From a virus: a stretch of 27,012 nucleotides of DNA. Below, in pieces: positions 3 to 23,409 of the stretch (the first letter of the stretch is position 1; each line of letters opens with the position of its first letter). The notes under the pieces are model-generated. The model did no database searches, had not been told where the DNA came from, and was given only the letters and a program-made list of their open reading frames with translations. The stretch covers positions 1 through 27,012 of the IMG/VR virus record IMGVR_UViG_3300030451_001513. One strand, written 5' to 3'. Both the position numbers and the translations under genes were made by a program.

Positions 3-353
3 GCACTGGATAATTTGACCAGAGAAAATTTTTCGAGTATAAAAGTGCCCTCCTTTGCTTTTTGTGCCGAGGGTAGAAGTATTCAGTATCAGGTTCAGTA
101 TATCAAAGGAGGAAGTATTATATCCAGAGAGGAATGGTATACTCTATATGATGAACTGGTTGAGAGAGATAGTGAATACAGTTTTACAGATTATAAAAGA
201 AAGAACTTCATCAAGTATCATGGTAACATCTATCCAGTAGATCTGAACAGTTATAGCAAGACACCTGTTGAAGTACGTCGTACCCTGTGGAAAAGAGAAG
301 AAAAGATGCCAAAGACATTATTCAATCAACAGGGAGAGAAGATATTCTACTAG
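3..353 (+). CDS. 3' end of an unrecognised gene (partial, start outside window)
   Basis: The reading frame is open from the first bases of the window to the TAG stop at 351-353. No ATG codon occurs in it until close to the C-terminus. A TTG at 15-17 is the only early start-like codon, so I read this as the C-terminal ~116 residues of a protein that starts upstream. The visible part is soluble, rich in Lys, Glu and Tyr, with no membrane segment and no motif I recognise. It ends tail to tail with the 69-aa minus-strand gene, and the two stop codons lie on opposite strands of one CTAG. Function unknown. Confidence 0.6.
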   Translation, partial: ALDNLTRENFSSIKVPSFAFCAEGRSIQYQVQYIKGGSIISREEWYTLYDELVERDSEYSFTDYKRKNFIKYHGNIYPVDLNSYSKTPVEVRRTLWKREEKMPKTLFNQQGEKIFY

Positions 354-1333: not shown

Positions 1334-1440
1334 TTCTGTTTTTTTCTATTTTCCCATGCTATGAATGCTTTATAACCTAAGTAACCTCGTGCCAAGTCCA
1401 CTGCTACGAACGTTATACATCCGATCAGTATGACTTCCAT
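1330..1440 (-). CDS. 36-aa single-span membrane miniprotein
   Basis: The ORF begins MEVILIGCITFVAVDLARGY and ends in a basic tail (RKKQK). Residues 3-14 are strongly hydrophobic, then Asp15 and Arg18 interrupt the segment. The ATG at 1438-1440 overlaps the TAA of the nuclease gene by one base (TAATG). The TGA overlaps the ATG of the 79-aa gene (ATGA). The two-sided overlap supports it as a real gene. No function can be assigned. Confidence 0.65.
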   Translation of the reverse strand: MEVILIGCITFVAVDLARGYLGYKAFIAWENRKKQK

Positions 1441-1937
1441 TACTGTATCAACTCTGGTAATGGATCTCCCTCGTCAGGCGGGAGCGTACCTCTTCTCATC
1501 CGTAAGTCTCTCAACTCATCGAAGTCTTTCTTCTTTGTTCCACCATCATACGGCCATGCATAACCTTCACCGATCATTTCCTCATTGAGTGATACAGTAG
1601 CATCCCCAACATATAACCAACCAAGAAGCCGACCATACTTACCCACGCCACCTTTGAGTTCGGTTCTGATAATAAGTTCATCTTCTCCTTTTATAGTATC
1701 TTCAAGTTTCTTCTTCAACCAGTTAGTCGCATCTATACCCAGTGCCTTCTCTTCTAGATCTCTTGTCCTCTTCTCAGGAGTATCAACTCCGGCAACCCTC
1801 ACTCTCTCCTTCTTCATCAAATCAAATCCCAAGTCAATCGTCACATCTATAGTGTCGCCATCGACAACTCTGTTGACTTTGACTACACGAAAGTTATAAC
1901 AACTCTTACGACTTGGTGGAACCATCACTCCCATCAT
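1440..1937 (-). CDS. Staphylococcal-nuclease-like (SNase/thermonuclease fold) protein
   Basis: SNase-family proteins are Ca-dependent phosphodiesterases that cut DNA and RNA. The diagnostic positions of the staphylococcal enzyme are present in order: VVDGDTI at 24-30 (Asp28 corresponds to Asp21), RVAGVDTPE at 47-55 (Arg47, Asp52 and Glu55 match Arg35, Asp40 and Glu43), and YGR at 101-103 (Arg103 matches Arg87). The catalytic set therefore looks intact. At 165 aa it has about the size of the mature enzyme. There is no signal peptide, so it should act inside the infected cell or virion. The start is MetMet at 1937/1934; an AAGGAG at 1942-1947 sits 4 and 7 nt upstream, favouring the second ATG. 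A role in host nucleic acid breakdown or recombination is inference. Confidence 0.85.
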   Translation of the reverse strand: MMGVMVPPSRKSCYNFRVVKVNRVVDGDTIDVTIDLGFDLMKKERVRVAGVDTPEKRTRDLEEKALGIDATNWLKKKLEDTIKGEDELIIRTELKGGVGKYGRLLGWLYVGDATVSLNEEMIGEGYAWPYDGGTKKKDFDELRDLRMRRGTLPPDEGDPLPELIQ

Positions 1938-2034
1938 TCATCTCCTTATAAGCCATACTCAGTATATAGTAGATATACCAAGACACGATTATGAGCAGAA
2001 TTGCTATCATCCAGATGACTCCCCAGACTATCAC
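1906..2034 (-). CDS. 42-aa membrane miniprotein with GTG start
   Basis: The GTG start (2032-2034) overlaps the TGA of the SGNH-like gene above it as GTGA. The protein is one long hydrophobic helix (residues 2-25, IVWGVIWMIAILLIIVSWYI) followed by a short polar tail rich in Ser, Asp and Lys. Its 3' end runs 32 nt into the nuclease ORF in another frame, and the ribosome binding site of the nuclease gene lies inside it. That arrangement would couple the two genes. A GTG start makes it less certain than its neighbours, but the strong membrane pattern and the coupled start support it. Function unknown. Confidence 0.6.
   Translation of the reverse strand: MIVWGVIWMIAILLIIVSWYIYYILSMAYKEMNDGSDGSTKS
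1942..1947 (-). promoter_or_regulatory. Shine-Dalgarno sequence of the SNase-like gene
   Basis: AAGGAG on the minus strand lies 4 nt before the ATG at 1937 and 7 nt before the in-frame ATG at 1934. It supports starting the nuclease at one of these codons and not at the later Met at residue 5. It is embedded in the coding sequence of the 42-aa membrane protein. Confidence 0.6.
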
Positions 2035-2813
2035 AGCATCTTCTCCACAATCGGTTTCATGAATTTTACAATATCAATACTTCCCTGCTTCGTCGGATGG
2101 AATGAATGAGGGTTTACCATTCCTTTTCTCTGTAGCAAATCAATCCGATGGCAGTCATCAAACCAGTCTGAGAAATGGAACTTGTCTTTATTACCTCTCC
2201 AACCATTTCTTCGTGCCAGAGTCGTACACATATCTTCTTCTAATGCAGGATTTGGTATGACACCAGTAGTATTCAGTGTCTCAAAGAATGCATAGGGCAC
2301 TCCGAGTGCATCAAAATAGTGCTGCCAATGAAGTATATTGTTTGTCAAGTCTCTCAGAAATACTTTTTCGTCAAAATGTTCCTTGAAATAAGCAAAAGTA
2401 TCGAAACCAGTCTTCTCCCTTTCTCTCAATCGGTTAGTAGGATCGTTTTTTGCTTGATTGAATGACACAGATGAGTAACTTTTGAGTCTATTGAACCATA
2501 ATTCATCACGATAGATGGATGTAATACCCCATAGGACAGCAGTATTTTCCCAATCTACCTCATTTTCTGCAAAATATTTGGTTGCACGACGGAATTGTGA
2601 CTGATTTGATGACCCACCCTTAGAAATATTGATGTTTGTAAGGTTCAATTCATCACAAAGTTTGAGTCTCCAACATGTATCATCTACATAATCTCCTTTT
2701 CCACCTTCTTTTTTGAATTTTGCCTTGTATGTTGCCTTGTCGACAGGGTTTTCTGCATCATAATATGACCCAATACCAAAAACCCAACTGCATCCGAGTG
2801 TTATAAGGTTCAT
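2031..2813 (-). CDS. SGNH/GDSL-hydrolase-like protein, copy A (260 aa)
   Basis: The N-terminal beta strand and turn MNLITLGCSW resembles SGNH block I, with Ser9 as candidate nucleophile. GGSSN at 66-70 resembles block II, and HPT at 239-241 resembles the block V His. SGNH proteins are esterases, acyltransferases or related hydrolases, often acting on acetylated sugars. Two usual features are missing: where GxND is expected there is WGITS (95-99), and the residue three before the His is His236, not Asp. The neighbouring paralogue shares these changes, so this may be a distinct subfamily, a Ser-His dyad enzyme or a non-catalytic fold. No signal peptide is seen. The start overlaps the previous stop (ATGA), and the stop overlaps the GTG of the 42-aa gene. 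Confidence 0.7.
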   Translation of the reverse strand: MNLITLGCSWVFGIGSYYDAENPVDKATYKAKFKKEGGKGDYVDDTCWRLKLCDELNLTNINISKGGSSNQSQFRRATKYFAENEVDWENTAVLWGITSIYRDELWFNRLKSYSSVSFNQAKNDPTNRLREREKTGFDTFAYFKEHFDEKVFLRDLTNNILHWQHYFDALGVPYAFFETLNTTGVIPNPALEEDMCTTLARRNGWRGNKDKFHFSDWFDDCHRIDLLQRKGMVNPHSFHPTKQGSIDIVKFMKPIVEKML

Positions 2814-3589
2814 ATTTTGATTACTTCGTCGAATAACTTTGCTATTCTAGCATGTGCTTCACGAGTTGGGTGGTATGAGTAAGGATTTACTAATTCTTTC
2901 TTCTCTAAAAACCTCATTCTTCTACTATCATCGTTGTTGAACTGCGAAACATGGTACTCATCAGGGTCATAATTATCAAATTCAAGGTCTTCACATAGTA
3001 TAGACATCAAATCTCTGTATTTTCTATCATTGAACAGCATCCTATCTACAGGAATAGGGTAGTCATGATGGTTGAATGTGTCAAACCAGTAGTTTTCAAC
3101 ACCTAATCCCTCAAAAAAGAGGTTCCAATGTCTCATCTTATGTGAAAGTTCTTTGATTTTTTGCTTTTTATCGAAGTGCCACTCCAAATGATTGTTGACA
3201 TCAAACCTTTTATGCTTCATATTGACATCTCGATTCATTCCATGACCATATAATACGTTCTGATACCCTGCTTTACCTTCATGGTTCTTTGTCAACCATA
3301 CCTCATGCCTGAAAACTGAGGTGATACCCCATAATACTATGACTCTTTCTCTAGGTTTCTTCTTGAAGTAGGTGGTTGCTCTACGAAACTGTCTATCATT
3401 ACTACTACCCATCTGTGAAAAGTTGAGATTAGTGCACTTCCACTTCTTTGTAAGCAATCCTCGGAAGGATAATTCATCACAGAGGATGTCATCATCATTT
3501 TTATCCTTATATTCTTCTTTATTCATGCCTTTCTTGTATGCCACACCGACACCACGAGTCCATGAACAACCTAATGTGACTAATAACAT
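2810..3589 (-). CDS. SGNH/GDSL-hydrolase-like protein, copy B (259 aa)
   Basis: This is a diverged tandem paralogue of the next gene downstream. Shared landmarks in the same order are TLGCSW (5-10), GSSN followed by QFRRAT (61-72), VLWGITS (85-91) with Arg and Glu soon after, and NPYSYHPT (235-242). Like copy A it has GITS in place of GxND, and a non-acidic residue (Tyr237) three before the His. I start it at the ATG at 3589 and not at the TTG 6 nt upstream, because the ATG start aligns directly with copy A. A hydrolase or acyltransferase acting on a surface glycan fits the neighbouring sulfotransferases, but substrate and activity are unknown. Confidence 0.7.
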   Translation of the reverse strand: MLLVTLGCSWTRGVGVAYKKGMNKEEYKDKNDDDILCDELSFRGLLTKKWKCTNLNFSQMGSSNDRQFRRATTYFKKKPRERVIVLWGITSVFRHEVWLTKNHEGKAGYQNVLYGHGMNRDVNMKHKRFDVNNHLEWHFDKKQKIKELSHKMRHWNLFFEGLGVENYWFDTFNHHDYPIPVDRMLFNDRKYRDLMSILCEDLEFDNYDPDEYHVSQFNNDDSRRMRFLEKKELVNPYSYHPTREAHARIAKLFDEVIKI

Positions 3590-3696
3590 GGACAACTCAT
3601 CATTATTTTGAAGGATCTCTGATATTTGTCCTTGAACAACTTACGAAACATGATCATTGTCATGATATGTGTCTGTTGAAATGCTATTTTTTCCAT
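3580..3696 (-). CDS. Possible 38-aa ORF between sulfotransferase and SGNH genes
   Basis: This short ORF starts MEKIAFQQTHIMTMIMFRKL and bridges the gap between the sulfotransferase stop (overlap 13 nt) and the SGNH copy B start (overlap 10 nt). It is Met-rich and basic, with no clear membrane segment. The bridging position would suit a coupled gene. However, it has no convincing ribosome binding site and no recognisable family, so it may be a chance ORF in an untranslated spacer. Confidence 0.3.
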   Translation of the reverse strand: MEKIAFQQTHIMTMIMFRKLFKDKYQRSFKIMMSCPCY

Positions 3697-4661
3697 GATG
3701 AAGGTAGATACCCAAAGGTATTTTTGAAATCTGTGTAATATCTAGCCATGTAAAGGTGAGCACTATGCAAATCCTGCTCTTCTAGGTCATCTATATCACT
3801 TTCCCACTGATCTTGTAGGAATGGGAGGTGAGGAGCACGACTTCCCATGTTGGGAACGTAACAATTGTCATGAAGTTTTGTAATTTTATACGACAAAAAG
3901 TTACTTAGTGCTTCGAGTTGCTCTTTTTCTTGATTTTTATCCCACAAATCTTCCATTATAGTAACATAAGTATTTTCTACACCGAATACAGAGGCAAATT
4001 TACTGTATGCTCCGGAGAAATCACATAAAGAACTACAACAATCCTGTTTTAGAAGGTGAAAGAACAGTTGTTTGTGTAATTTCTTGCGAATTAGGAATCT
4101 AGTCTTCATATCTTCCTTATGTTCGACGGAATATTCAAATTTTTTGTTCAATAAACTACCAACTTCCGAAAAATAGCGTCTTACTGGGTCACGAAACTGA
4201 AAAGTGACCTTTACATTGAAGTGTTCTCGCAATTTAGGAGCAACCTCCGCCCAAAATTCGTATGGAAGTGCATAATTTCCGTTTGTGAAGTCGCAAACTG
4301 CTGCATAAGTGTCTTTTACTGTCTCCCAATGACTCTTCCAGTAAGAAATGTAGTTTTCTATTGACGGAGGACATGCCAAATACGGGTCTAGCGGAGTTCT
4401 GACCGCAAATTTGTTTTTTTGCGACAGGTATTGACCCCAAGGATGATTAGAAGGACGCTTATTGTATAAATTTTGACCAGAACAGTATATTTCTTTGAAA
4501 TGATCTTCGTATTTTGGATATTCGCATAATCTTTTGAGATACCAGTTCTCTTTCAGGTGTCCCATGTGTGCATATTTGTTATCAAGCGTCAAAGTATAGT
4601 GGAAGGGAGTGGTCGCTGCCCATCCTACGCCAGGATTCAATAATAATGTTGGTTTAGACAT
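3684..4661 (-). CDS. PAPS-dependent sulfotransferase-like protein, copy 1 (325 aa)
   Basis: Sulfotransferases of this fold move sulfate from PAPS to a hydroxyl or amino group, often on a carbohydrate. The N-terminal motif NPGVGWAATTP (9-19) fits the 5'-phosphosulfate binding loop, though the usual Lys of PKSGTT is absent. FRDPVRRYFS at about 156-165 fits the 3'-phosphate binding motif (Arg and Ser). A second sulfotransferase starts head to head 181 nt away and shares many positions, including YVP..G..AP and DQWESDI near the C-terminus. Copy 1 has about 25 extra residues after the 3'-phosphate motif, with a CC-containing stretch. There is no signal peptide or membrane anchor, so it should be cytoplasmic in the infected cell. 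Substrate unknown. Confidence 0.78.
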   Translation of the reverse strand: MSKPTLLLNPGVGWAATTPFHYTLTLDNKYAHMGHLKENWYLKRLCEYPKYEDHFKEIYCSGQNLYNKRPSNHPWGQYLSQKNKFAVRTPLDPYLACPPSIENYISYWKSHWETVKDTYAAVCDFTNGNYALPYEFWAEVAPKLREHFNVKVTFQFRDPVRRYFSEVGSLLNKKFEYSVEHKEDMKTRFLIRKKLHKQLFFHLLKQDCCSSLCDFSGAYSKFASVFGVENTYVTIMEDLWDKNQEKEQLEALSNFLSYKITKLHDNCYVPNMGSRAPHLPFLQDQWESDIDDLEEQDLHSAHLYMARYYTDFKNTFGYLPSSWKK

Positions 4662-4674
4662 ATATACAGTAGTT

Positions 4675-4842
4675 ATGGTGGAACAAATGTCCTATGACGT
4701 CTACCTAGATAATGAGATTGTTTTTTCTGTATTGACAAAGAAGCAAGCAGAGGAAAAACGTGACCAAATGCAACAAATGATTATGGCAGGACTGAAAACT
4801 GATTATACTGCCGAGCAAATCTCGATAAAGTATCACTCGTAA
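4675..4842 (+). CDS. 55-aa small protein (YDVYLDNE motif)
   Basis: The protein begins MVEQMSYDVYLDNEIVFSVL and is followed by a charged helix with Lys/Glu/Gln. I place the start at the ATG at 4675, 13 nt after the divergent sulfotransferase start. The open frame extends further upstream, but that part only mirrors the sulfotransferase gene. An internal Met at residue 5 is also possible. The stop overlaps the ATG of sulfotransferase copy 2 by one base (TAATG). The opening motif resembles that of the 53-aa protein at 8089, so both may belong to one family of small beta-strand-first phage proteins. Function unknown. Confidence 0.7.
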   Translation: MVEQMSYDVYLDNEIVFSVLTKKQAEEKRDQMQQMIMAGLKTDYTAEQISIKYHS

Positions 4843-5735
4843 TGAAACCCACCCTATTTCTGAATGTTGGAACCGGATGGTCTGGTACAACTCCATTATA
4901 TTATACATTAGGGTGGTACAATAAGTATTGTCACAGTGGTCATCGCAAAGAGAAGGGTTATTTGTGGTTGATGGACTTATCTGAGACCAGAAACACATTT
5001 GAGAGGGTCAAATTCTACAAACAATTCTTTGGACCTTCAAAACAATCAACTACGAACCGAAAACCGAAGATATTCACACATGAGTCGAAATATATTGGTG
5101 GAAATTGGACAGAAGATGAAATAAAGTATTTTTGGAGTCCTCCATTTACGATAGAGAAGTATATTGAGTATTATATCAAGCATTGGGACTTTATAAAACA
5201 CGATTACAAGGCAGTGAGTGATTTTTCCAATCCTAACGGACAATGCTCTCCAGAATTTCTGATGAAGTACGCTCCAGCACTCAAATCCGTGTTTGACGTA
5301 AAAATTCACGTTGTCTTCCGTGATCCATTACGCAGATTGTGGAGTTTGCGTCAAAAACAAAATCCTAAAGACCCAGTTAGGCAATTTATGAAGATGGGAG
5401 TCGATTTTGGGTATGTACAGTTCTTTCTAAAGTTTGTAGAAGCGTTTGGACTCGAAAATTGCCATATGACGATTATGGAGGAATTTTGGAATGGGGAAAC
5501 GAAGGAATTATCGGATTTTATCGATTATGAGATAAAGGAAGTGCACCCAAACGCATATGTGCCCGATGTAGGTCCTAATGCTCCTAGAATCCAATATTTG
5601 GACGATCAGTGGGAGTCTGATATCATGCATATGCCAAAAGAGGTAAAAGAGTACGGATTGAACATGTTGAAACCCGTCTATATACATTTCAAGGATTACT
5701 TCGGTGATCTTCCCGAACAGTGGAGTAAATTATGA
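4842..5735 (+). CDS. PAPS-dependent sulfotransferase-like protein, copy 2 (297 aa)
   Basis: The N-terminal loop NVGTGWSGTTP (8-18) is the candidate 5'-phosphosulfate site. FRDPLRRLWS at about 158-167 is the candidate 3'-phosphate site. Conserved blocks shared with copy 1 include NKY.H.GH.KE near residues 27-37, TIMEEFW in the C-terminal half, and DQWESDI. It is shorter than copy 1 because the region after the 3'-phosphate motif is compact. It sits in a tight run of the 55-aa gene, this gene, a 47-aa gene and a carbamoyltransferase, joined by 1-4 nt overlaps, so these products are probably made together. Different acceptors for the two copies are likely given their divergence, but this is inference. 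Confidence 0.8.
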   Translation: MKPTLFLNVGTGWSGTTPLYYTLGWYNKYCHSGHRKEKGYLWLMDLSETRNTFERVKFYKQFFGPSKQSTTNRKPKIFTHESKYIGGNWTEDEIKYFWSPPFTIEKYIEYYIKHWDFIKHDYKAVSDFSNPNGQCSPEFLMKYAPALKSVFDVKIHVVFRDPLRRLWSLRQKQNPKDPVRQFMKMGVDFGYVQFFLKFVEAFGLENCHMTIMEEFWNGETKELSDFIDYEIKEVHPNAYVPDVGPNAPRIQYLDDQWESDIMHMPKEVKEYGLNMLKPVYIHFKDYFGDLPEQWSKL

Positions 5736-5875
5736 TCTGGCCATTGAATAGAATCGCTACATGGTGGAAACTAAAGAAGATTAGAGAAGAAGACCCGTAT
5801 ATTTACGAAGATGACGAATATGACGCAATGTTGGACGAAGATAACGACTATGAGGATTTGAGTGAAGGAAGATGA
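5732..5875 (+). CDS. 47-aa acidic protein
   Basis: The ORF begins MIWPLNRIATWWKLKKIREE. An N-terminal amphipathic, Trp- and Lys-rich segment is followed by a very acidic tail (about residues 19-46, mostly Asp, Glu and Tyr). The ATG overlaps the sulfotransferase stop (ATGA), and its TGA overlaps the carbamoyltransferase ATG (ATGA). The two-sided overlap and the strong composition pattern make it a real gene in my view. The Trp-rich basic head could touch a membrane or nucleic acid and the acidic tail could mimic DNA, but neither is shown. From memory similar short ORFs occur in cyanomyoviruses. Confidence 0.75.
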   Translation: MIWPLNRIATWWKLKKIREEDPYIYEDDEYDAMLDEDNDYEDLSEGR

Positions 5876-7251
5876 TTGGTTTCTCCGAAGGATTCCATGA
5901 TAGTGCTGTTGCGTGTGTCAATGGCGGTGTAATTACCTATGCCACGCATGGAGAACGTTTTTCGAGAAAAAAGCACGACAAAAAGTTGTGTATAGAAGCT
6001 GCTGCGACTGCTCAAGCATTAAATATCTTTGATGACGTAATATCCTTCTATGAGAAACCTCTACCCAAGAGAATCCGCCAATTTACCGCAGGACAGAAGG
6101 CATGGAGGCGAAATAGAGAATTATGCATGCAACCAACGCATTATTGCGAACATCACATGTCTCATGCTGCTGCTGCGTTTCAGACCAGTGTTTTTGATGA
6201 AGCAGCATGTGTGGTGGTCGATAGTATCGGAGAATGGGACTGTAGTTCGATCTGGACTGCAAAAATGGTTGATGGTAAGGCAAAATACAAAAAAGTATGG
6301 AATATGCGATATCCCAAGTCAATTGGACTGTGGTATTCCGCATTGACGAAATGGGCGGGTTTGAGACCGTTAGATGAGGAATATATCTTCATGGGCATGG
6401 CAGCGTACGGAGAAGCGAAGTATATTGACGAAGTTTCCGCATTATTGCACCAAAACAACCATAAGGGCATAAAAGAGTTACATGGTGCTCCGCACGACAT
6501 TGCAAAGAGTGCAGAAGTGGTTTTAGAGTATGAATTGAAGAAAATCTTTGAAATAGCACTAACTTACTCAAATAACATCTGCTATGGCGGTGGAGTCGCT
6601 CTCAACTGCGTTGTAAACACCAAACTAAGGGAAATGTGCAATTTATGGATTATGCCGAATCCAGGCGATGCTGGAGGTGCCTTAGGAGCAGCATTGATTC
6701 CATATGGCGAAAAAGTTCAATTCTCGCCATTCTTAGGTTATAATATCAATAGAAAACCAGATCCTAATGAAATCGTCGCAAAACTCCTCTCAGAAGGAAT
6801 CGTGGGGGTTGCAAATGGCCGTAGTGAGTTTGGTCCTCGTGCTCTCGGTAATCGAAGTCTATTGGCGGATCCACGCAAAATTTCAACAAAACACCAAGTA
6901 AATGCGATAAAAAGGCGTCAGAAGTTCAGACCTTTCGCTCCTGCGATATTAGAAGAGTATTGTACCGATTATTTTGAAATGCCAGGACATTCGAGATATA
7001 TGTCGTATGTTTATCAATGTAAGCGTCCACACGACATTCCTGCGGTTCTACACGTCGATAATAGTGCTAGAGTACAAACTGTACCAGAATCATCAGAATC
7101 CATCCTCAGGGAGATCCTAGAGGTGTGGTATGAGCATACAGGTTGTCCTGTGCTTTTGAATACGTCATTGAATATAAGGGGTATGCCTATGGTAAATGAC
7201 TTTTGTGACGCACTCAACTTCTCCGCAAAGTACCGCGTTGACGTATACTAA
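5872..7251 (+). CDS. NodU/CmcH-family O-carbamoyltransferase (459 aa)
   Basis: This family uses carbamoyl phosphate and ATP to place a carbamoyl group on a hydroxyl of a sugar or other small molecule. The N-terminal Kae1-like domain shows GFHDSA (7-12), ERFSRKKHD (28-36) and the metal-binding HHMSH (94-98, HxxxH). It also has YGGGVALN (about 238-245) and a glycine-rich NPGDAGGALGAA (about 263-274). The C-terminal YrdC-like domain shows FGPRALGNRSLLADPR at about 320-335 and LLNTSLNIRGMP near 426-438. All landmarks are present, so it looks complete, though shorter than many bacterial members. It follows the sulfotransferase and 47-aa genes in one coupled run. Carbamoylation of a glycan or small host metabolite is the inferred role. 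Confidence 0.92.
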   Translation: MIGFSEGFHDSAVACVNGGVITYATHGERFSRKKHDKKLCIEAAATAQALNIFDDVISFYEKPLPKRIRQFTAGQKAWRRNRELCMQPTHYCEHHMSHAAAAFQTSVFDEAACVVVDSIGEWDCSSIWTAKMVDGKAKYKKVWNMRYPKSIGLWYSALTKWAGLRPLDEEYIFMGMAAYGEAKYIDEVSALLHQNNHKGIKELHGAPHDIAKSAEVVLEYELKKIFEIALTYSNNICYGGGVALNCVVNTKLREMCNLWIMPNPGDAGGALGAALIPYGEKVQFSPFLGYNINRKPDPNEIVAKLLSEGIVGVANGRSEFGPRALGNRSLLADPRKISTKHQVNAIKRRQKFRPFAPAILEEYCTDYFEMPGHSRYMSYVYQCKRPHDIPAVLHVDNSARVQTVPESSESILREILEVWYEHTGCPVLLNTSLNIRGMPMVNDFCDALNFSAKYRVDVY

Positions 7252-7266
7252 ATAACGCAGTATAAT
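7238..7266 (+). promoter_or_regulatory. Strong sigma-70-like promoter before the glycosyltransferase-like gene
   Basis: TTGACG (7238-7243) is separated by exactly 17 nt from TATAAT (7261-7266). These match the bacterial consensus at 5 of 6 and 6 of 6 positions with optimal spacing. The -10 box ends 20 nt before the ATG at 7287, so the leader would be very short. The -35 box lies inside the last codons of the carbamoyltransferase gene. A late-type CTAAATA motif lies in the spacer. Confidence 0.65.
7247..7254 (+). promoter_or_regulatory. Possible T4-type late promoter motif (ACTAAATA)
   Basis: ACTAAATA overlaps the carbamoyltransferase TAA stop and lies about 32 nt before the next ATG. It fits the NATAAATA late motif of T4-like phages at all but one position (C in place of A at the second). 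It sits inside the spacer of the sigma-70-like promoter, so the gene could be read both early and late. Confidence 0.4.
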
Positions 7267-7271
7267 GAATT

Positions 7272-7283
7272 GAAAGATCTTTC
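7272..7283 (+). other. 12-nt perfect palindrome in the short leader
   Basis: GAAAGATCTTTC is its own reverse complement and ends 3 nt before the ATG at 7287, covering the expected ribosome binding region and the expected transcription start of the promoter above. It could be a small operator or structured leader, or chance in AT-rich DNA. Confidence 0.3.
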
Positions 7284-7286
7284 GGA

Positions 7287-8054
7287 ATGGCAAAAGGATT
7301 CAAAGTGGTCACCACACCACCAGCAAATAGTGGTAAAACAGAAAAGTCTAATGAGTTTTCTATAGAAGCAGCAAGAGAGTTAGTCAAGGGCAAAACTTTC
7401 ATATTCTGTTTACCAGGTAGAACTGTTTCATACGTCTATCTAAAAAACTTTGTACAGTTAGCATTTGAGATTGTACAGAAGGGCGGTACTCTACAAATAT
7501 CGCAAGACTACTCATCTATGGTAAACTTTGCCAGATGTAAGTGTCTAGGAGCAAATGTTCTCAGAGGTCCTGATCAGTTACCATGGGATGGTAAGTTGAA
7601 GTATGACTATCAGTTATGGATCGACAGCGACATCGTATTCGGTCTAGAACAGTTCTATAGACTTCTTTGGATGGATAAGGACATAGCAGGTGGTTGGTAC
7701 GTCACAGAGGACGGAAACACCACATCCTGTGCACATTGGATGGAAGAAGAAGATTTCAAAGCAAATGGTGGTGTAATGAACCACGAGATGTTAGATGGTA
7801 TACAAAAGAGAAGAAAACCATTTACAGTTGACTATTCTGGATTTGGTTGGTTGCTAATCAAGCATGGTGTGTTTGAGAATGAACAAATGAAGTATCCATG
7901 GTTTGCACCACAGATGCAAGTATTTGAATCTGGTGAAGTACAAGACATGTGTGGAGAAGATGTATCATTCTGTTTAGATGCACAGAAAGCAGGATATGAA
8001 ATATGGGTAGATCCTAAATGCAGAGTCGGTCACGAGAAGAATAGAATAATCTAA
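7287..8054 (+). CDS. GT-A-fold glycosyltransferase-like protein (255 aa)
   Basis: GT-A glycosyltransferases use a DxD motif to hold a metal and a nucleotide sugar. Here DSD stands at 113-115 after a hydrophobic strand (YQLWIDSDIVF). GGWY follows at 135-138, SGFGWLLIKHGVF at 184-196, and GEDVSF at 223-228. A final GHE has His249 as candidate third metal ligand. This order matches the family well. The N-terminal ~30 residues are polar and variable. No membrane segment is present. It has its own promoter region, including a near-consensus sigma-70 type and a late-type motif, unlike its coupled neighbours. It may glycosylate a virion protein or act with the carbamoyl- and sulfotransferases. The acceptor is unknown. 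Confidence 0.75.
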   Translation: MAKGFKVVTTPPANSGKTEKSNEFSIEAARELVKGKTFIFCLPGRTVSYVYLKNFVQLAFEIVQKGGTLQISQDYSSMVNFARCKCLGANVLRGPDQLPWDGKLKYDYQLWIDSDIVFGLEQFYRLLWMDKDIAGGWYVTEDGNTTSCAHWMEEEDFKANGGVMNHEMLDGIQKRRKPFTVDYSGFGWLLIKHGVFENEQMKYPWFAPQMQVFESGEVQDMCGEDVSFCLDAQKAGYEIWVDPKCRVGHEKNRII

Positions 8055-8088: not shown

Positions 8089-8250
8089 ATGGACGACAGA
8101 TACGATATCTACGTCGACGGGGTCAAGACACATGAGAGCATATCCGAAGAAGAAATGGAAGAAGTCACTCAAGATTTGGCAGACGAATTCTACGAAAACG
8201 GTTGGCCACACCCCAAAGATGTAGAAGTAAGATACCTAGGACATGAATAG
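8089..8250 (+). CDS. 53-aa acidic small protein (YDIYVDG motif)
   Basis: The ORF starts at ATG 8089, preceded by ATAGGA as a possible ribosome binding site, and ends at TAG 8248-8250. The sequence opens MDDRYDIYVDGVKTHESISE and continues acidic, with a GWPHP turn and a final beta-like stretch (VEVRYLG). The opening motif is similar to that of the 55-aa protein at 4675. The stop codon's G is the first base of a terminator stem, so transcription appears to end here. Function unknown. Confidence 0.72.
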   Translation: MDDRYDIYVDGVKTHESISEEEMEEVTQDLADEFYENGWPHPKDVEVRYLGHE

Positions 8251-8273
8251 GGTTCCGTGCGAACCCTTTTTTT
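8250..8273 (+). terminator. Intrinsic terminator
   Basis: GGGTTC (8250-8255) and GAACCC (8261-8266) form a perfect 6-bp stem around a CGTGC loop, followed directly by seven T residues (8267-8273). It closes the 7287-8250 unit and insulates it from the late baseplate unit that starts just downstream. Confidence 0.9.
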
Positions 8274-8286
8274 GTGGCACTAAATA

Positions 8287-8294
8287 GATAAATA
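8287..8294 (+). promoter_or_regulatory. T4-type late promoter (GATAAATA) of the baseplate operon
   Basis: GATAAATA matches the NATAAATA late motif of T4-like phages and lies 28 nt before the GTG start of gp25 and 13 nt after the terminator. A second, weaker copy (ACTAAATA, 8279-8286) lies directly upstream. Position and spacing agree with the motif before gp8. Confidence 0.65.
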
Positions 8295-8322: not shown

Positions 8323-8727
8323 GTGCCACTACAGAGAACATCAGAACCATTCAGAGATATATCTTTGACCTTCAAACGTCATCCTGTGACGAATGATATT
8401 ATAATGCTAAAAAATGAAGATGCAATCAAACGTGCAGTGCAGAACCTTGTACGCACCCAGATTGGTGAGCGATTTTTCAATACTGATTTAGGCACTAGAA
8501 TTACTTCTTCTCTATTTGAATTAGCAAATGATGATTATATTGAACCAATTCAAACTGAAATAGAAATGGTCATAAACCAGTATGAACCAAGAGTAATTTT
8601 ACAACAAGTCGTAGTAGAAAGCAGACCAGAACAAAATGCTTTGGATGTTTCTATACAATACAAGATTGTGGGACTAAATTCACCCTCACAGAATGTCCAA
8701 TTTATTTTAGAACCAACTAGGTTATAA
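8323..8727 (+). CDS. gp25: Baseplate wedge subunit gp25
   Basis: gp25 is the conserved small wedge protein that joins the baseplate to the contractile sheath and helps begin sheath assembly. At 134 aa its length is right for the family. The family pattern is visible: an early DISLTF strand, a polar loop, KNEDAIKRAVQNL, then GERFFNTDLGTRI (about 46-58) and a C-terminal beta hairpin around VVVESR and DVSIQYKI. The start is GTG at 8323. It is the first gene of the late unit, with a late motif 28 nt upstream. Its TAA overlaps the gp6 ATG by one base. Identity is from motif memory and from being adjacent to gp6. Confidence 0.92.
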   Translation: MPLQRTSEPFRDISLTFKRHPVTNDIIMLKNEDAIKRAVQNLVRTQIGERFFNTDLGTRITSSLFELANDDYIEPIQTEIEMVINQYEPRVILQQVVVESRPEQNALDVSIQYKIVGLNSPSQNVQFILEPTRL

Positions 8728-18985: not shown

Positions 18986-21852
18986 TGTCATTTCAATTAG
19001 GTTCCGTAAATAGACAGTTCAACACAGAGTCAGAGACTTTTGTACAGTCTTTCAATCTGACTCATGATGGTGATCCATTGTTTCATAAAAAGTTTGATGG
19101 GTCTGATAACGCACAAGTATTGTTAGGTGATGATTCTTTTGTTATCAAAAATCATTTCTTTATAACTGGAGAGCAAGTAAAATATCAGGCAGACACAGAC
19201 TTATCTGGTAGACCAGTAGGTATACAACATGGACTGAATGGGGTTGGTGCTGCAACCACATTGCCACAAGATGTATTTGTTATCAAAGTAAGTGAAAATA
19301 ATTTTAAGGTTGCTGCAACTAAAGCATTAGCAAAGGCAGGAAGTCCTATTGGTCTGACAACTGTTGGTGCTGGTGTAACACATACGTTTACATCAATAGA
19401 CAAGAATTCAAAGTGTGTAATAGCGATTGATGATATCATACAGTCACCTGTATATAAGAGAAATGGTTCAACAACAACATTAGTGAATATCGCTAATAGA
19501 GAAGCGAATGTCACAGATGCTTCATTCATGAAACAGTATGATCTTCTACAGATCAACGATGAAATAGTTCGTATTGCTGCTCTTCATTTCAATGGTGTAC
19601 AGAATAAATTATTGCTAGACAGAAACTGGATGGGTACTACAAAGCAGGGACACTCTGCTGGTGATACTGTGCAGTTAGTTTTTGGTGATTATAATATTGT
19701 AGATGATAAGATAACATTTGCTGATGTACCATTTGGTGGTACAAGACAAACTGTAGGTATTGACTCCAGTGATTTTGTTGGTAATACGTTTGGTGTTTTG
19801 ACTGAAGTTTTCCAGACTGGTACTAAGGTAAAAATTAGAAGTTTGAACCCACCATCACCGTTAGTTGCAAACGATGATTATTTCATCATAACAAACGCTG
19901 CAAATAACTTTTCTTTTGCTGCTACAAAAGGTGAGGCATTGGTTGGTATTGCTATTACTTTAACAAATGCTGGTATAGGAACTCACAAACTAATCGTTGC
20001 TGACATTGTAGAGGGTTCTTCTTTCCATGGTAGACAATTTATCAGATCTGACTATGCTGGTAATGTTATATTAGATGATATATCACAGAATTTTACAGGT
20101 ATAGGAAAGACATTTACACTTACAGAAGGTGGTAGTAATACTACTGGTATCACTAGCGACTTTGGTGCTATATTGATAAACAATATCTTCCAGAAACCAG
20201 AGGTAGACTACAACTTCTTGAGTTCTCCATCACCAGGTATTACGTCTGTGAGATTTACTGGTAATGAAGCACCTGGCGTTACAGAGGTATTGTCAGATGA
20301 TGATGTAAATGCTAACAGACTTCCAAGAAAAGGTATATTAGTATCTGTTTCTAACTCAGAAGGACTAGGATATCTGCCAGGTCAGTATGATGACATAAGA
20401 TTAGAGAGTTCAAGTACTGGTATAGGTGCATCTATTGCAGTAGAAATAGGTGTTGGTAATAGTATTTCAAGATTTAGACTACAAAATCCTGGTTTTGGAT
20501 ACACAACTGGTGAGAATTTGAATGTTGTAGGTATACCAACCATATCATCTTATGGTTCAGACTTCTCAGCAGCACAATTTACTGTCGTAGATACAGCAGA
20601 TGATGAGTTTACTGGGTTTGTATTTGGTAAATTACAAGTTCTTGATGATATATCTGATCAATTTGATGGTAGGAAGAAGATATTTACTCTAAGAGAGAAT
20701 AACATAACGATTAGTATCGAAAAAACTGAAGGATCAATATTAAGTTTACAAGATGTACTGATGATATTTGTGAATGACACCCTACAAAAACCAGGTGTGG
20801 CATACAAATTTGAAGGTGGTACACAAATAGAGTTTTTAGAACCACCAGTTGAGGGTTCTGTCTGTCAAATACTATTCTACAGAGGTACTGATAAAGATAT
20901 TTCTACAACAACATCTCTACAGACAATCAAAACTGGTGATGGTCTGTCAATTAAGAGACAAGATGAGAGAATAGTTAGAGGTATTTTAGCAAGAGACTCC
21001 TTACAGACTACAAACTATAAAGGTGTCAACATATCTGCTACAAAAATACCAAGAAGACCAGTTATGTGGTCTAAACAACAAGATGATTTGTTTATTGAAG
21101 GTGTGAAGGTAAGTAAATCAAGAGATATGTACGAACCAAGAATATTCCCTGCTACAAGATTGATAAAATCAGTGGATACTGGTGACTCAACAGCGTATGT
21201 AATGGGTGGTACATTAGCGTTCAAGAAAACTGAGACGAATACTGGTTATACTCCGACTACAGACTTCCCTATCAAGATTGTAGATGATAATTTTGAAACA
21301 GGATTTGGTTCTACTACATTTGAGATGAAACTTGATAAACAAACATCTGCAAATATTTTTGGAGATGAGGGTAATATCATAGGTGTTGGTGTAGCAGCAT
21401 CAAGACTATCAATGCATCTGTATCTACCAACAGATAACTCATTGAGAAGCACTCGTTTTGGTGGTTTGACAAAAACTGGTATCCAAACGGGTGATTATAT
21501 GATGGTGAGTAGATCTAATGTTGGTACTGGATTGACATCTAAAAATAGTGCTGATAATGCTATTGTTGGTATCGCAACAGAATTTATTGATGGAGTTTAT
21601 CAGATTGCTGATATAGAAGATGTTACCGCACAGATAGTCAGAGTTCACGTCAATATTGAGACAGGTCATGGACTCAACTTCACAGGTCTCAGTAGTGCTA
21701 TAGGTAATTACTACGGGTCTTATTCTTGGGGTAAAGTTGTCACAGGATCTATTGGAACCTCCTTCGCAGTCAACACTTTGGACGGTGTTACTGGACTATC
21801 CACTGCACCACAAGTCATCAGAGATGAAAAATTACTTGTGGATTACCCATAA
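18985..21852 (+). CDS. Virion structural protein between the gp7 position and gp8 (955 aa)
   Basis: I do not recognise a named family. The N-terminus (MSFQLGSVNRQFNTES) leads to two module A copies at about residues 53-136 and 266-336. A LLQINDEIVRI strand near 182-192 is followed by a WMGTTKQGHSAGD turn. One module B unit (RFRLQNPGFGYTTGE, about 496-510) follows. The region TLRENNITISI to LQKPGVAYKFEGG (about 568-615) resembles an assembly or attachment domain occurring twice; an earlier FTLTEGG..LINNIFQKPEVDYNF lies at about 375-412. The protein has no membrane segment. It starts with a TAATG overlap to the giant gene and its stop lies inside a late promoter motif. It is probably a wedge-region or tail-surface component. 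Confidence 0.8.
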   Translation: MSFQLGSVNRQFNTESETFVQSFNLTHDGDPLFHKKFDGSDNAQVLLGDDSFVIKNHFFITGEQVKYQADTDLSGRPVGIQHGLNGVGAATTLPQDVFVIKVSENNFKVAATKALAKAGSPIGLTTVGAGVTHTFTSIDKNSKCVIAIDDIIQSPVYKRNGSTTTLVNIANREANVTDASFMKQYDLLQINDEIVRIAALHFNGVQNKLLLDRNWMGTTKQGHSAGDTVQLVFGDYNIVDDKITFADVPFGGTRQTVGIDSSDFVGNTFGVLTEVFQTGTKVKIRSLNPPSPLVANDDYFIITNAANNFSFAATKGEALVGIAITLTNAGIGTHKLIVADIVEGSSFHGRQFIRSDYAGNVILDDISQNFTGIGKTFTLTEGGSNTTGITSDFGAILINNIFQKPEVDYNFLSSPSPGITSVRFTGNEAPGVTEVLSDDDVNANRLPRKGILVSVSNSEGLGYLPGQYDDIRLESSSTGIGASIAVEIGVGNSISRFRLQNPGFGYTTGENLNVVGIPTISSYGSDFSAAQFTVVDTADDEFTGFVFGKLQVLDDISDQFDGRKKIFTLRENNITISIEKTEGSILSLQDVLMIFVNDTLQKPGVAYKFEGGTQIEFLEPPVEGSVCQILFYRGTDKDISTTTSLQTIKTGDGLSIKRQDERIVRGILARDSLQTTNYKGVNISATKIPRRPVMWSKQQDDLFIEGVKVSKSRDMYEPRIFPATRLIKSVDTGDSTAYVMGGTLAFKKTETNTGYTPTTDFPIKIVDDNFETGFGSTTFEMKLDKQTSANIFGDEGNIIGVGVAASRLSMHLYLPTDNSLRSTRFGGLTKTGIQTGDYMMVSRSNVGTGLTSKNSADNAIVGIATEFIDGVYQIADIEDVTAQIVRVHVNIETGHGLNFTGLSSAIGNYYGSYSWGKVVTGSIGTSFAVNTLDGVTGLSTAPQVIRDEKLLVDYP
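19141..19992 (+). repeat. Two module type A copies in the 955-aa protein
   Basis: Copies at about 19141-19392 and 19780-19992 show TGE.V.Y or TGTKVKI, then FVIKVSENNFKVA or YFIITNAANNFSFA, and end GAGVTHTF or GIGTHKL. They match the copies at 13144-13682 in the preceding gene. Confidence 0.65.
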
Positions 21853-21855
21853 ATA
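21848..21855 (+). promoter_or_regulatory. T4-type late promoter (CATAAATA) before gp8
   Basis: CATAAATA matches NATAAATA exactly and overlaps the TAA stop (21850-21852) of the 955-aa gene. It lies 24 nt before the gp8 ATG, a spacing like that before gp25. It would give gp8 and the DUF4815-type gene their own late transcript. Confidence 0.65.
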
Positions 21856-21879: not shown

Positions 21880-23409
21880 ATGCCAGCGATTATAACTGAT
21901 CAGATTAGAGTGCTGAATGCTGAGAACTTTGTCAGTGGGATATCAACCACGGATAATTCGTATTATGTTTTCATAGGATTGCCTAATGCAACCACTGTAG
22001 CGTCTGACTGGAACACCAATACTCCTTCCCCCATTGACAATTTTGATGAACATGATAATGTTTATGATACTTTGATTAGTGCGAAGAAGATAAATTCAGC
22101 AGACGTATTGAGAGTTATAAGAAAAAGAGAATGGACAACCGGTTCAATTTACGAGATGTATCGCCATGATTATAGTATCAATAATACAACACCTCAAACG
22201 AGTTCCACAAGTTTATATAATAGTAATTACTACGTTATCAACTCTGATTTCAGAATCTATGAGTGCATCTATAATGGTGCTGCACCTTCCAACTCTGGAA
22301 AAGGTATTATCTCATTACAAGAACCTCTTCATACAGATTTGCAACCTAGACTTGAGAGTGATGGATATATTTGGAAGTATCTTTTCACAATCAAACCTAG
22401 CGATATTATAAAATTTGATAGTGCAGACTTTATACCAGTTCCAGCAAACTGGAAAACTTCTACTGACACAGCAGATGTAAAGAATGCTTCTGTAGATGGA
22501 AAGATTGAAGTTATCACAATAGATGATATAGCAAGTGCTTCATACCAGTTCACTGGTACTAAAAATAATGTGCCTATCAGAGGTGATGGTTCTGGTGGTT
22601 TAGCATCAGTGACATTTACCAATGGTAAACCAACTGCTGTTCAGGTAACAAACGGAGGTTCAGGATACACATTTGCTACTTTGGATTTAGATGCTGTTGT
22701 TACAGGATCAGGAGCATCTTTCTCAGTTATCATACCACCACCTGGTGGACATGGTGCTGATGTCTATCGTGAACTAGGATCTAACAAGGTTCTTGTTTAC
22801 AGTAGAATTGAAAATGCTGATGTAACTAACCCTGACTTCCCAACTGGAAACCAATTTGCAAGAATTGGAATCATCAAGAATCCTGAAGTCAATGGCAGTA
22901 CAAACATACTGACAGATCCTAGTGCTACTGGGGTTTATGGATTACGACTTGCTGGTGCAGCGTCAACAACAATGACCGTTGAAGTTGATGGTATTGTAAG
23001 TCAAACTGTAGGAACAGGTGCTACTGCTTTAGGTAGAATCGTCAACTACGATCCAGCAACTCAAGTATTGCAGTATTGGCAGGATAGATCAGTTGCTTCT
23101 GGTGACGCAACTTCCCTTTCCCAATTTGCACTAAATAGATTCACGGCTTCCCCTGCTACAGGCGGGAGTTTGAACGTTGTTGTAAAAACAACAGGGGGTA
23201 CAGAAACCCTTGCAATTGATAATACGTTTACAGGAGTTTCTACTACAGTAAACAATAGAGCATATTATTTCGGTCAAACATTTACCTCTGGTATTGCTTC
23301 CCCAGAGATTAAGAAGTACTCAGGAGATATTATCTACCTTGATAATAGACCTGAAGTCACAAGAGCAACTAACCAACGTGAAGATATAAAAATTATCTTA
23401 GAATTCTGA
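21880..23409 (+). CDS. gp8: Baseplate wedge subunit gp8
   Basis: gp8 is a wedge protein that forms a dimer and bridges gp6, gp7 and gp10 in T4. Landmarks resembling T4 gp8 appear in order: an early SYYVFIGLP strand (about 27-35), VIRKREW (about 80-86, T4 has VIPRRDW), an IYECIYNG strand (about 126-133), and DGYIWKYLFTI (about 159-169, T4 has DGYVWEYLFEI), followed by a FIPVP strand. At 509 aa it is much longer than T4 gp8 (334 aa). Part of the extra length is a module B unit (VQVTNGGSGYTFATL, about 254-268) like those in the two preceding genes. The ATG is 27 nt after the previous stop. Confidence 0.85.
   Translation: MPAIITDQIRVLNAENFVSGISTTDNSYYVFIGLPNATTVASDWNTNTPSPIDNFDEHDNVYDTLISAKKINSADVLRVIRKREWTTGSIYEMYRHDYSINNTTPQTSSTSLYNSNYYVINSDFRIYECIYNGAAPSNSGKGIISLQEPLHTDLQPRLESDGYIWKYLFTIKPSDIIKFDSADFIPVPANWKTSTDTADVKNASVDGKIEVITIDDIASASYQFTGTKNNVPIRGDGSGGLASVTFTNGKPTAVQVTNGGSGYTFATLDLDAVVTGSGASFSVIIPPPGGHGADVYRELGSNKVLVYSRIENADVTNPDFPTGNQFARIGIIKNPEVNGSTNILTDPSATGVYGLRLAGAASTTMTVEVDGIVSQTVGTGATALGRIVNYDPATQVLQYWQDRSVASGDATSLSQFALNRFTASPATGGSLNVVVKTTGGTETLAIDNTFTGVSTTVNNRAYYFGQTFTSGIASPEIKKYSGDIIYLDNRPEVTRATNQREDIKIILEF

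Follow-up and report, generated by a model that had tools for sequence, protein, structure and literature searches.

We describe here a 27,012-nt stretch of viral DNA (hereafter the window), positions 1 to 27,012 of the IMG/VR virus record IMGVR_UViG_3300030451_001513, in which six genes at 2031-8054 precede the baseplate wedge gene gp25. The viral record to which the window belongs is 59,402 bases long and has two further sulfotransferase genes at 35.5-37.3 kb. The six genes, which the initial annotation had read as a possible cassette for decorating a glycan, are predicted to encode two sulfotransferases (ST1 and ST2), two SGNH-fold proteins (SG1 and SG2), a carbamoyltransferase (CT), and a glycosyltransferase (GT); GT belongs to the core gene order GT (T4-GC 102)-gp25-gp6 of T4-like cyanophages (Kyanoviridae), which is present in the window. 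Our principal finding is that CT and a variable array of ST and SG genes constitute an ST/SG/CT island which is confined to one uncultured cyanophage clade and lies just upstream of GT, and which on balance we think serves the combinatorial tailoring of a glycan in that clade alone, a lineage of uncultured cyanomyoviruses. The locus is laid out as follows:

SG1, 2031-2813, minus strand: 260 amino acids (aa); predicted SGNH-fold family member with GCSW block I and HPT block V
SG2, 2810-3595, minus strand: 261 aa, TTG start, 4-nt overlap with SG1; predicted SGNH-fold protein
ST1, 3684-4661, minus strand: 325 aa; predicted sulfotransferase of the 3'-phosphoadenosine 5'-phosphosulfate (PAPS) type, modeled with a glycan-sulfotransferase fold
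Divergent gap between ST1 and ST2, 4662-4841: 180 nt, separating the two arms of the island
ST2, 4842-5735, plus strand: 297 aa; predicted sulfotransferase family member
CT, 5872-7251, plus strand: 459 aa; predicted O-carbamoyltransferase of the NodU/TobZ type, fixed member of the island
GT, 7287-8054, plus strand: 255 aa; core cyanophage gene T4-GC 102 with a DSD motif, probable GT-A glycosyltransferase
gp25 baseplate wedge gene, 8323-8727, plus strand: right boundary (PF04965 2.7e-15; phrog_261 4.7e-47)

All six open reading frames (ORFs) are exactly where the initial annotation had put them. They do not have the layout of a single operon: SG1, SG2, and ST1 read leftward, and ST2, CT, and GT rightward. 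Comparison with seven related loci gave ratios of nonsynonymous to synonymous substitution (dN/dS) of 0.04-0.59 for every gene found, indicating purifying selection and hence that the six ORFs are real genes; the range was 0.08-0.14 for ST2 across 7 relatives and 0.05-0.34 for SG1 in the 4 relatives carrying it, SG1 and SG2 not being found in 3/7 relatives whose contigs are short on that side.

The company kept by GT was surveyed in a GT-anchored scan of viral contigs covering the best 80 of at least 597 matches. CT, SG, or ST lay beside GT in 26/26 rows with a GT at least 78% identical to that of the window, and none of the three did in the 54 rows with a GT 73-76% identical (0/54), among which at least 1.5 kb of upstream sequence was present in 39 and at least 3 kb in 27. 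Loci sharing an identical gene were also merged, reducing 185 loci to 131 contig groups; where CT was no more than 3 kb from GT and the upstream 8 kb could be read, SG was found in 31/31 groups, ST in 29/31, and both in 29/31, and where there was no CT near GT, SG or ST was found in 0/8 groups with 8 kb readable. These pooled groups are biased, most contigs having been found with ST, SG, or CT queries, and the GT scan is the fairer sample. Four groups in which the 3 kb around GT has no CT do have island genes and count as island-bearing in the tree described below: L118 (CT farther off), L136 and L150 (less than 1 kb upstream, SG seen), and L144 (CT inverted). The last of these has GT present with gp25 and CT in the opposite orientation, reflecting either a rearranged genome or a chimeric assembly. 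A scan with the ST motif (best 80 of 113) yielded an additional 16 loci on 15 contigs, with SG in 14/16 and CT in 8/16. In a tree of gp6, from which contigs with less than 400 aa of gp6 were excluded, the island-bearing contigs make up one side of a single branch (68 versus 41 rows, 1 change, 0/500 shuffles as low; Shimodaira-Hasegawa-like approximate likelihood ratio test 100 by a quick method on 109 rows). We conclude that the ST/SG/CT island is confined to one uncultured cyanophage clade.

The supposition that all six genes travel together is only partly borne out: CT, ST, and SG co-occur, but GT is independent and CT is also found alone. Specifically, i) GT adjoins gp25 with no ST or SG in the sequence covered, as judged by profiles, in 4/4 cultured cyanophages read (S-SSM7, P-SSM2, S-T4, and S-SRM01), ruling out GT as a member of the traveling set, since it is a core gene in cultured phages that lack the rest; and ii) Nol/NodU-like carbamoyltransferases are known in cyanophages, being among the genes noted in 4 genomes of a 2010 set (PMC3037559), and those of T4-GC 303, 721, and 1350 are of the same family as the window CT, but in 5/5 named-phage loci with ~9 kb of flank at either end profiles detect neither ST nor SG. 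Because GT and CT each occur independently elsewhere, the traveling set is CT plus variable ST/SG arrays rather than six genes; and because each is found in named phages with neither ST nor SG nearby, joint action with these is not required of either.

One named record, Marine virus AG-345-D19, was found to have all three families on one contig (L001: ST on the minus strand, then two SG and CT on the plus strand), and its CT, with ST and SG adjoining, is 65% identical to that of the window. A single-cell survey assigns plate AG-345 to its extracellular sort gate (PMC6122165). A single-protein tblastn search of named phages with SG gave no match, but this search is insensitive and missed the two SG genes of L001. 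The psbA-type family PF00124 was present in 3/10 records searched (G003, G004, and AG-345-D19; the window's own fragment is without it), and since two relatives and AG-345-D19 thus carry photosystem reaction-centre genes, the lineage most likely infects cyanobacteria. AG-345-D19 also has a second carbamoyltransferase (L131 15926-17403) split into two ORFs, with the gene for the C-terminal domain ahead of that for the N-terminal domain.

The assignment of ST to the glycan-type PAPS-dependent sulfotransferases is a prediction supported by fold and residues. The AlphaFold2 model of ST1 (predicted local distance difference test score, pLDDT, 92.3; predicted template modeling score, pTM, 0.92) was compared with known structures by VIA-align, in which heparan sulfate 3-O- and N-sulfotransferases gave Z 15.7-17.1 over 224-237 aligned residues, headed by 3-OST-3 (1t8t; Z 17.1, 227 residues, 3.3 A) and NDST1 (1nst; 232 residues, 3.3 A; top Z 17.1), and a bacterial structure, 3rnl, gave Z 16.7; sulfotransferases of polyketide enzymes (Z 13-14) and tyrosylprotein sulfotransferases (Z 11.3-12.4) ranked lower. 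The ST family profile likewise reached 3rnl at 4.5e-8 and also heparan sulfate 3-O-sulfotransferases, and at E 0.1 ST homologs touched the Pfam families Sulfotransfer_1 (11/63) and Sulfotransfer_3 (10/63), the best at 5.1e-7. ST2 is 35% identical to ST1 and belongs to the same hidden Markov model (HMM) family. From 255 ST and 315 SG starting ORF hits, which include overlapping loci and contig-end fragments, we counted residues in distinct full-length copies, 126 for ST (270-345 aa) and 178 for SG (185-285 aa). Arg157 (120/126) and Ser165 (119/126), both present in ST1 of the window, are presumably the residues that bind the 3'-phosphate, as judged from the known motif and a profile alignment to 3rnl; the loop GxGWSATTP (G11 in 126/126; T or S at position 17 in 126/126), which follows strand 1 of the ST1 model, we take to be the 5'-phosphosulfate loop; and Glu38 (117/126) may correspond to the catalytic Glu of 3-OST. 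The likeness to heparan sulfate 3-OST and NDST thus extends to the fold over 224-237 residues and the Arg and Ser of the 3'-phosphate motif, but ST of the window family are phage proteins just 10-14% identical to these enzymes.

The same comparisons bear on whether ST might instead sulfate protein, modifying tyrosine or another side chain in tail fibers, with CT and SG doing unrelated jobs. Tyrosylprotein sulfotransferases do match the ST1 model, ranking 2, 4, and 5 by Foldseek E-value, and some ST genes adjoin tail-fiber-like genes; the heparan sulfate 3-O- and N-sulfotransferases are however clearly higher by Z, and CT and SG travel with ST, so that we hold protein sulfation to be distinctly unlikely. 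Two other protein types were seen near ST genes. A Sulfotransfer_2-type protein (9.9e-6) lies inside one array (L107 2882-3841), outside the profiled ST family, and P-loop proteins with the motif TGPQGSGNHL lie near tail-fiber-like and ST genes (L022 6995-8402; L207 3641-4276 and 8691-9371); the two of these that were searched had no Pfam match, and they might be distant relatives of sulfotransferases or kinases.

SG is probably an SGNH-fold protein with a Ser-His dyad. The AlphaFold2 model of SG2 (pLDDT 93.3, pTM 0.91) is nearest to GDSL, carbohydrate-esterase, and TesA folds at Z of about 14, including 4rw0 (Z 14.6, 160 residues, 3.1 A by VIA-align) and the carbohydrate esterase 7tog (Z 14.4, 175 residues, 3.0 A). 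SG1 is 34% identical to SG2 and shares one HMM family with it; at E 0.1, SG homologs touched two GDSL families (20/85 and 19/85) and DUF6071 (33/85). The nucleophile Ser of block I and the His of block V are present in both SG1 and SG2 of the window, and among full-length copies Ser11 is kept in 172/178, His242 in 162/178, Asn66 in 178/178, and Gly63, a candidate for the Gly of block II, in 158/178. Asn66 sits in a GxSN loop, a place which differs from that of the usual Asn of SGNH block III. SG1 and SG2 lack the Asp of the Ser-Asp-His triad that marks a canonical GDSL esterase: the position three residues before the His is Tyr239 in SG2 and His in SG1 of the window. Structure prediction with Foldseek searching had been proposed for all six proteins; ST1 and SG2 were modeled, and their folds match the families assigned to them, so that the sulfotransferase reading of ST1 and ST2 stands by fold and residues, though below Pfam cut-offs, and the SGNH reading of SG1 and SG2 by fold and the kept Ser and His.

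For CT, the initial annotation was right to call it a carbamoyltransferase: Pfam, PHROG, and PDB matches agree in predicting an O-carbamoyltransferase of the NodU/TobZ kind, with scores over the Pfam cut-offs for PF16861 (178.1 bits versus 27; 1.4e-52) and PF02543 (120.2 versus 24; 1.7e-34), a match to phrog_1601 at 2.7e-89, and PDB matches to novobiocin carbamoyltransferase (9s2t, 8.2e-52), GdmN, and TobZ. H94, H95, and H98, in a motif HHxxHA that we take to bind metal, are invariant in 7/7 aligned phage CTs, as is the motif GPRALG (G321-PRALG-326). The window CT is 27-38% identical to the listed named-phage matches with at least 80% coverage; the best-scoring cellular CT found is 45% identical and lies on a delta-proteobacterial contig of a metagenome-assembled genome (MAG), with a Sulfotransfer_1 protein and four glycosyltransferases. 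Another contig, from a gamma-proteobacterial MAG (L279), has a CT 40% identical to that of the window, SGNH-like genes nearby, a P-loop protein resembling adenosine 5'-phosphosulfate (APS) kinase (PF01583 2e-7), a radical S-adenosylmethionine (SAM) gene, and an epimerase, and may itself be viral.

That the nearest PDB relatives of CT are antibiotic O-carbamoyltransferases, and that the ST fold also matches the sulfotransferase domains of polyketide enzymes, would suit enzymes that modify some soluble small molecule or signal, much as Nod factors are decorated, in place of a virion or surface glycan. We give this alternative little credence: no scaffold-making gene was recognized among the other array ORFs, of which 10/36 clusters were tested, and the heparan sulfate enzymes match ST better. 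The adjacency of GT and CT raises another alternative, hypermodification of DNA bases, in which CT would carbamoylate hydroxymethylcytosine and its neighbors would decorate the base further; indeed, a phage-type CT from a sewage metagenome carbamoylates hydroxymethylcytosine in vitro (PMC8670742). In the passages of that paper on which we draw, however, CT together with PF00303 (thymidylate synthase/hydroxymethylase) is found just in modified contigs, and neither sulfotransferases nor SGNH proteins are named; PF00303 was found in 0/8 of our records (7 from the lineage or its near kin, most of them fragments, plus P-SSM2), with control genomes positive in 9/14. We disfavor this explanation and consider it very improbable.

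The glycosyltransferase reading of GT fared less well. GT is probably a GT-A glycosyltransferase, weakly backed: D113-S-D115 is invariant in 18/18 aligned copies (mean column identity 85%), but the family matches are just weak ones, to the glycosyltransferase family phrog_34859 at 1.2e-5 and to Pfam GT8, touched by 1/18 copies at E 0.1. Its strong match is to phrog_1574 (5.7e-110), of unknown function, and a search of PDB sequences gave no match at E 0.01.

The arrays themselves are highly diverse. We found 25 different gene orders among 31 contig groups, and up to 6 ST and 8 SG within 9 kb of GT. The best paralog on the same contig has a median identity of 34.5% for ST and 31.5% for SG, which rules out recent tandem duplication as the main source of the arrays, and just 6 ST and 12 SG genes have a same-contig paralog at least 70% identical. 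Among genes with a same-contig paralog, the closest relative is on another contig for 98/111 ST and 148/165 SG (3 ST copies and 1 SG copy that belong to no contig group being left out of these counts and of the medians), and L025, with 99.2% identity to the window in gp6 and GT, nonetheless has an extra SG between CT and GT. The arrays therefore look as if they reflect exchange from a shared pool more than fresh duplication. Additional copies occur elsewhere in the genomes: i) the ST pair at 35.5-37.3 kb of the window's own record is flanked by long tail-fiber-like genes, one of which has a sub-threshold Mtd_N match (2.3e-5); ii) a 192-kb relative has three ST genes at the corresponding tail-fiber-like place; and iii) the closest long relative (L209; G001 ~107-112 kb) has a second array after nrdB (ribonucleotide reductase genes), consisting of SG, ST, SG, SG, a phosphomannomutase-like gene (PF03332 6.1e-22), and SG. 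Sugar-nucleotide genes are found in or beside some arrays, an epimerase on 3 contigs and a UDP-sugar dehydrogenase on 1 contig.

Such hypervariable gene order and number, the presence of other gene types in or beside the arrays, and the further copies at tail-fiber-like, nrdB, and other sites could all be accounted for if the arrays were loose cargo, an exchange pool at an insertion hot spot whose genes share no common target molecule. Against this speak the purifying selection seen for each gene tested, the recurrence of ST, SG, and CT in almost all arrays for which 8 kb was read, and the presence of island genes in all 26 clade rows of the GT scan, and we regard it as unlikely.

Putative signals for transcription divide the island from the baseplate operon, the relevant features being:

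Sigma-70-like promoter, TTGACG-17-TATAAT, 7238-7266, plus strand: precedes GT, 11/12 consensus positions
Terminator-like hairpin and T run, 8249-8267, plus strand: between GT and gp25
ATAAATA late-promoter-like motif, 8288-8294, plus strand: ahead of the baseplate operon

Neither sigma-70-like hits (22 in the region versus 22.7 in shuffles) nor terminator-like sites (5 versus 4.7) are in excess. The pair before GT is conserved in the clade: TTGnnn-16..18-TATAAT is present within 90 nt before GT in 58/77 island loci versus 4/50 others. The motif ATAAATA, which we take to be the core of the T4-type late promoter, occurs twice in the window versus 9.36 expected (8288-8294 and 21849-21855) and is absent from the 180-nt gap between ST1 and ST2 by motif scan; it is found within 90 nt upstream of gp25 in 66/77 island loci and 39/50 others, and before GT in 0/77 and 1/50. 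Late co-expression of the island with the baseplate operon is disfavored, since the hairpin and the late-type motif separate the island from gp25. ATAAATA precedes 3/148 ST, 16/192 SG, and 1/70 CT genes, versus 16/3080 random 90-mers; the 16 SG genes concerned are all left of CT, and many are mutual orthologs. TATAAT precedes 11/70 CT genes, versus 264/3080 random. As far as promoter motifs allow, the island is mostly outside the late operon, and a subset of SG genes may be late. The second ATAAATA of the window just precedes a 509-aa ORF at 21880.

We propose that during infection the phage would produce soluble enzymes in the host cytosol, where ST would transfer sulfate, taken from the PAPS of the host, to hydroxyl groups on a sugar chain, CT would transfer carbamoyl to such hydroxyl groups from the host's carbamoyl phosphate, and SG would take acyl groups off this chain or shift them, with the core GT next door perhaps supplying or extending it. 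Each phage's own set of old, diverged ST and SG paralogs would then give its own decoration pattern, with CT fixed. A sugar acceptor is suggested by the ST fold class, by the sugar-nucleotide genes near arrays, and by the occurrence of the best-scoring cellular CT found with a Sulfotransfer_1 protein and four glycosyltransferases. The earlier proposal of a sulfated, carbamoylated, perhaps acylated glycan was right in kind and wrong in membership; joint action on one glycan, like the substrates and the biological role, is something that we infer rather than observe.

Several results, including the independent GT and CT loci described above, weigh against this proposal. Neither ST1 and ST2 nor SG1 and SG2 match any Pfam family above cut-off or any PHROG at E 0.001; by Foldseek, the TM-scores normalized to query length reach no more than modest values among the matches listed (ST up to 0.51, SG up to 0.43); and heparan sulfate 2-O-sulfotransferase matches the ST1 model at just Z 10.4. 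The usual triad Asp three residues before the His is present in 2/162 His-bearing SG copies, and because it is mostly lacking, SG activity is uncertain. No APS kinase was found in 8/8 phage records (a control, Synechococcus elongatus, has one), so that PAPS must come from the host. In a set of 80 bacterial loci that surround relatives of CT, a match to the ST profile was found in 1/80 and one to the SG profile in 7/80, and the three families therefore rarely meet outside the clade. Arrays include genes with no clear glycan link, namely radical SAM, 2-oxoglutarate oxygenase, and HpcH aldolase genes, and an unknown 386-aa protein is found in or beside the arrays of 14 contigs. Finally, ST and SG starts show no enrichment of TATAAT (14/148 and 12/192 versus the random figure above), and the rarity of the late motif at ST and CT starts disfavors a purely late virion role.

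As to the acceptor, we tentatively put a virion or tail-linked glycan first, a possibility suggested by the ST genes in a tail-fiber-like neighborhood; a host surface polysaccharide, modified for receptor or superinfection control, is nearly as probable, and something else again would be a less probable acceptor. It is an attractive if doubtful idea that this lytic marine phage lineage has a combinatorial sulfation code, in which each genotype would draw old ST and SG paralogs from a shared pool beside a fixed CT and core GT, and that this code, written on a virion or infected-cell glycan, would be for phages what the patterning of heparan sulfate or the serotypes of O-antigens are elsewhere. 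A check for host origin in 300 genomes of a Prochlorococcus genome's family found a remote ST relative in 43/300 (E 0.001 or better, best 2.3e-23) and an SG relative in 5/300, with no ST/SG array in the three regions read.

The proposed chemistry has a parallel in the rhizobial Nod-factor set NodU, NodH, and NodL, which place carbamoyl, sulfate, and acyl groups onto one sugar chain. Carbamoyl, sulfate, and acyl decoration of one sugar chain is what we propose here, but no gene for a chitin-oligomer backbone was recognized among the ORFs tested, and the SGNH fold of SG is unlike that of NodL. Among phages, the lipopolysaccharide (LPS) gene clusters of the large cyanophage genomes P-SSM2, S-SM2, and S-SSM7, located near hli03 or phoH, are a close comparison (PMC3037559); they too are clustered sugar-related genes of unproven function in cyanomyoviruses, for which the authors weigh stuffer DNA against functional linkage, but sulfotransferase has 0 occurrences in the consulted text of that paper, and the island described here belongs to a different clade and has CT next to GT-gp25 together with several copies of ST and SG. 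Sulfotransfer_3 proteins have been described in two viral genomes of the OM43-phage type and said to resemble one in cultured S-SRM01 (PMC10580990); these are phage-borne like ST, but the consulted passages describe no arrays with SGNH proteins and carbamoyltransferase, and the authors consider the function of sulfotransferases in phage genomes unclear. Two virome papers list sulfotransferases among viral metabolic genes (PMC12285232 and PMC13079714). We found no description of an ST/SG/CT island in searches of one open-license library. The island is a putative member of the phage glycan-modification loci.

What sets this island apart is that sulfotransferases of the glycan type and SGNH proteins have been retained throughout an entire clade, constantly reshuffled around a single carbamoyltransferase, and such an array may decide the outward appearance of the virus or of the host cell. 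An acceptor on the virion or host surface would make the array a genetic record from which the surface contest between phages and cyanobacteria of the ocean could be read. Much the same gene families, differently combined on related genomes, also provide natural comparison pairs.

Some minor observations complete the description of the locus. Rfam and tRNA scans of the window gave 0 matches. A radical SAM-like gene at L064 7198-8451, which scores just below the Pfam cut-off (2.3e-6), has homologs in 12 contigs and is repeatedly found within the island or next to it. To the left of the island, the nearest gene of a named family in the window lies outside the set:

SNase-like nuclease gene, 1440-1937, minus strand: left flank (PF00565 2.2e-11; phrog_452 1.3e-68)

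Beyond it, a small protein encoded at 1094-1333 on the minus strand matches phrog_275 at 1.2e-8 and, below threshold, DUF2973 at 0.0026.

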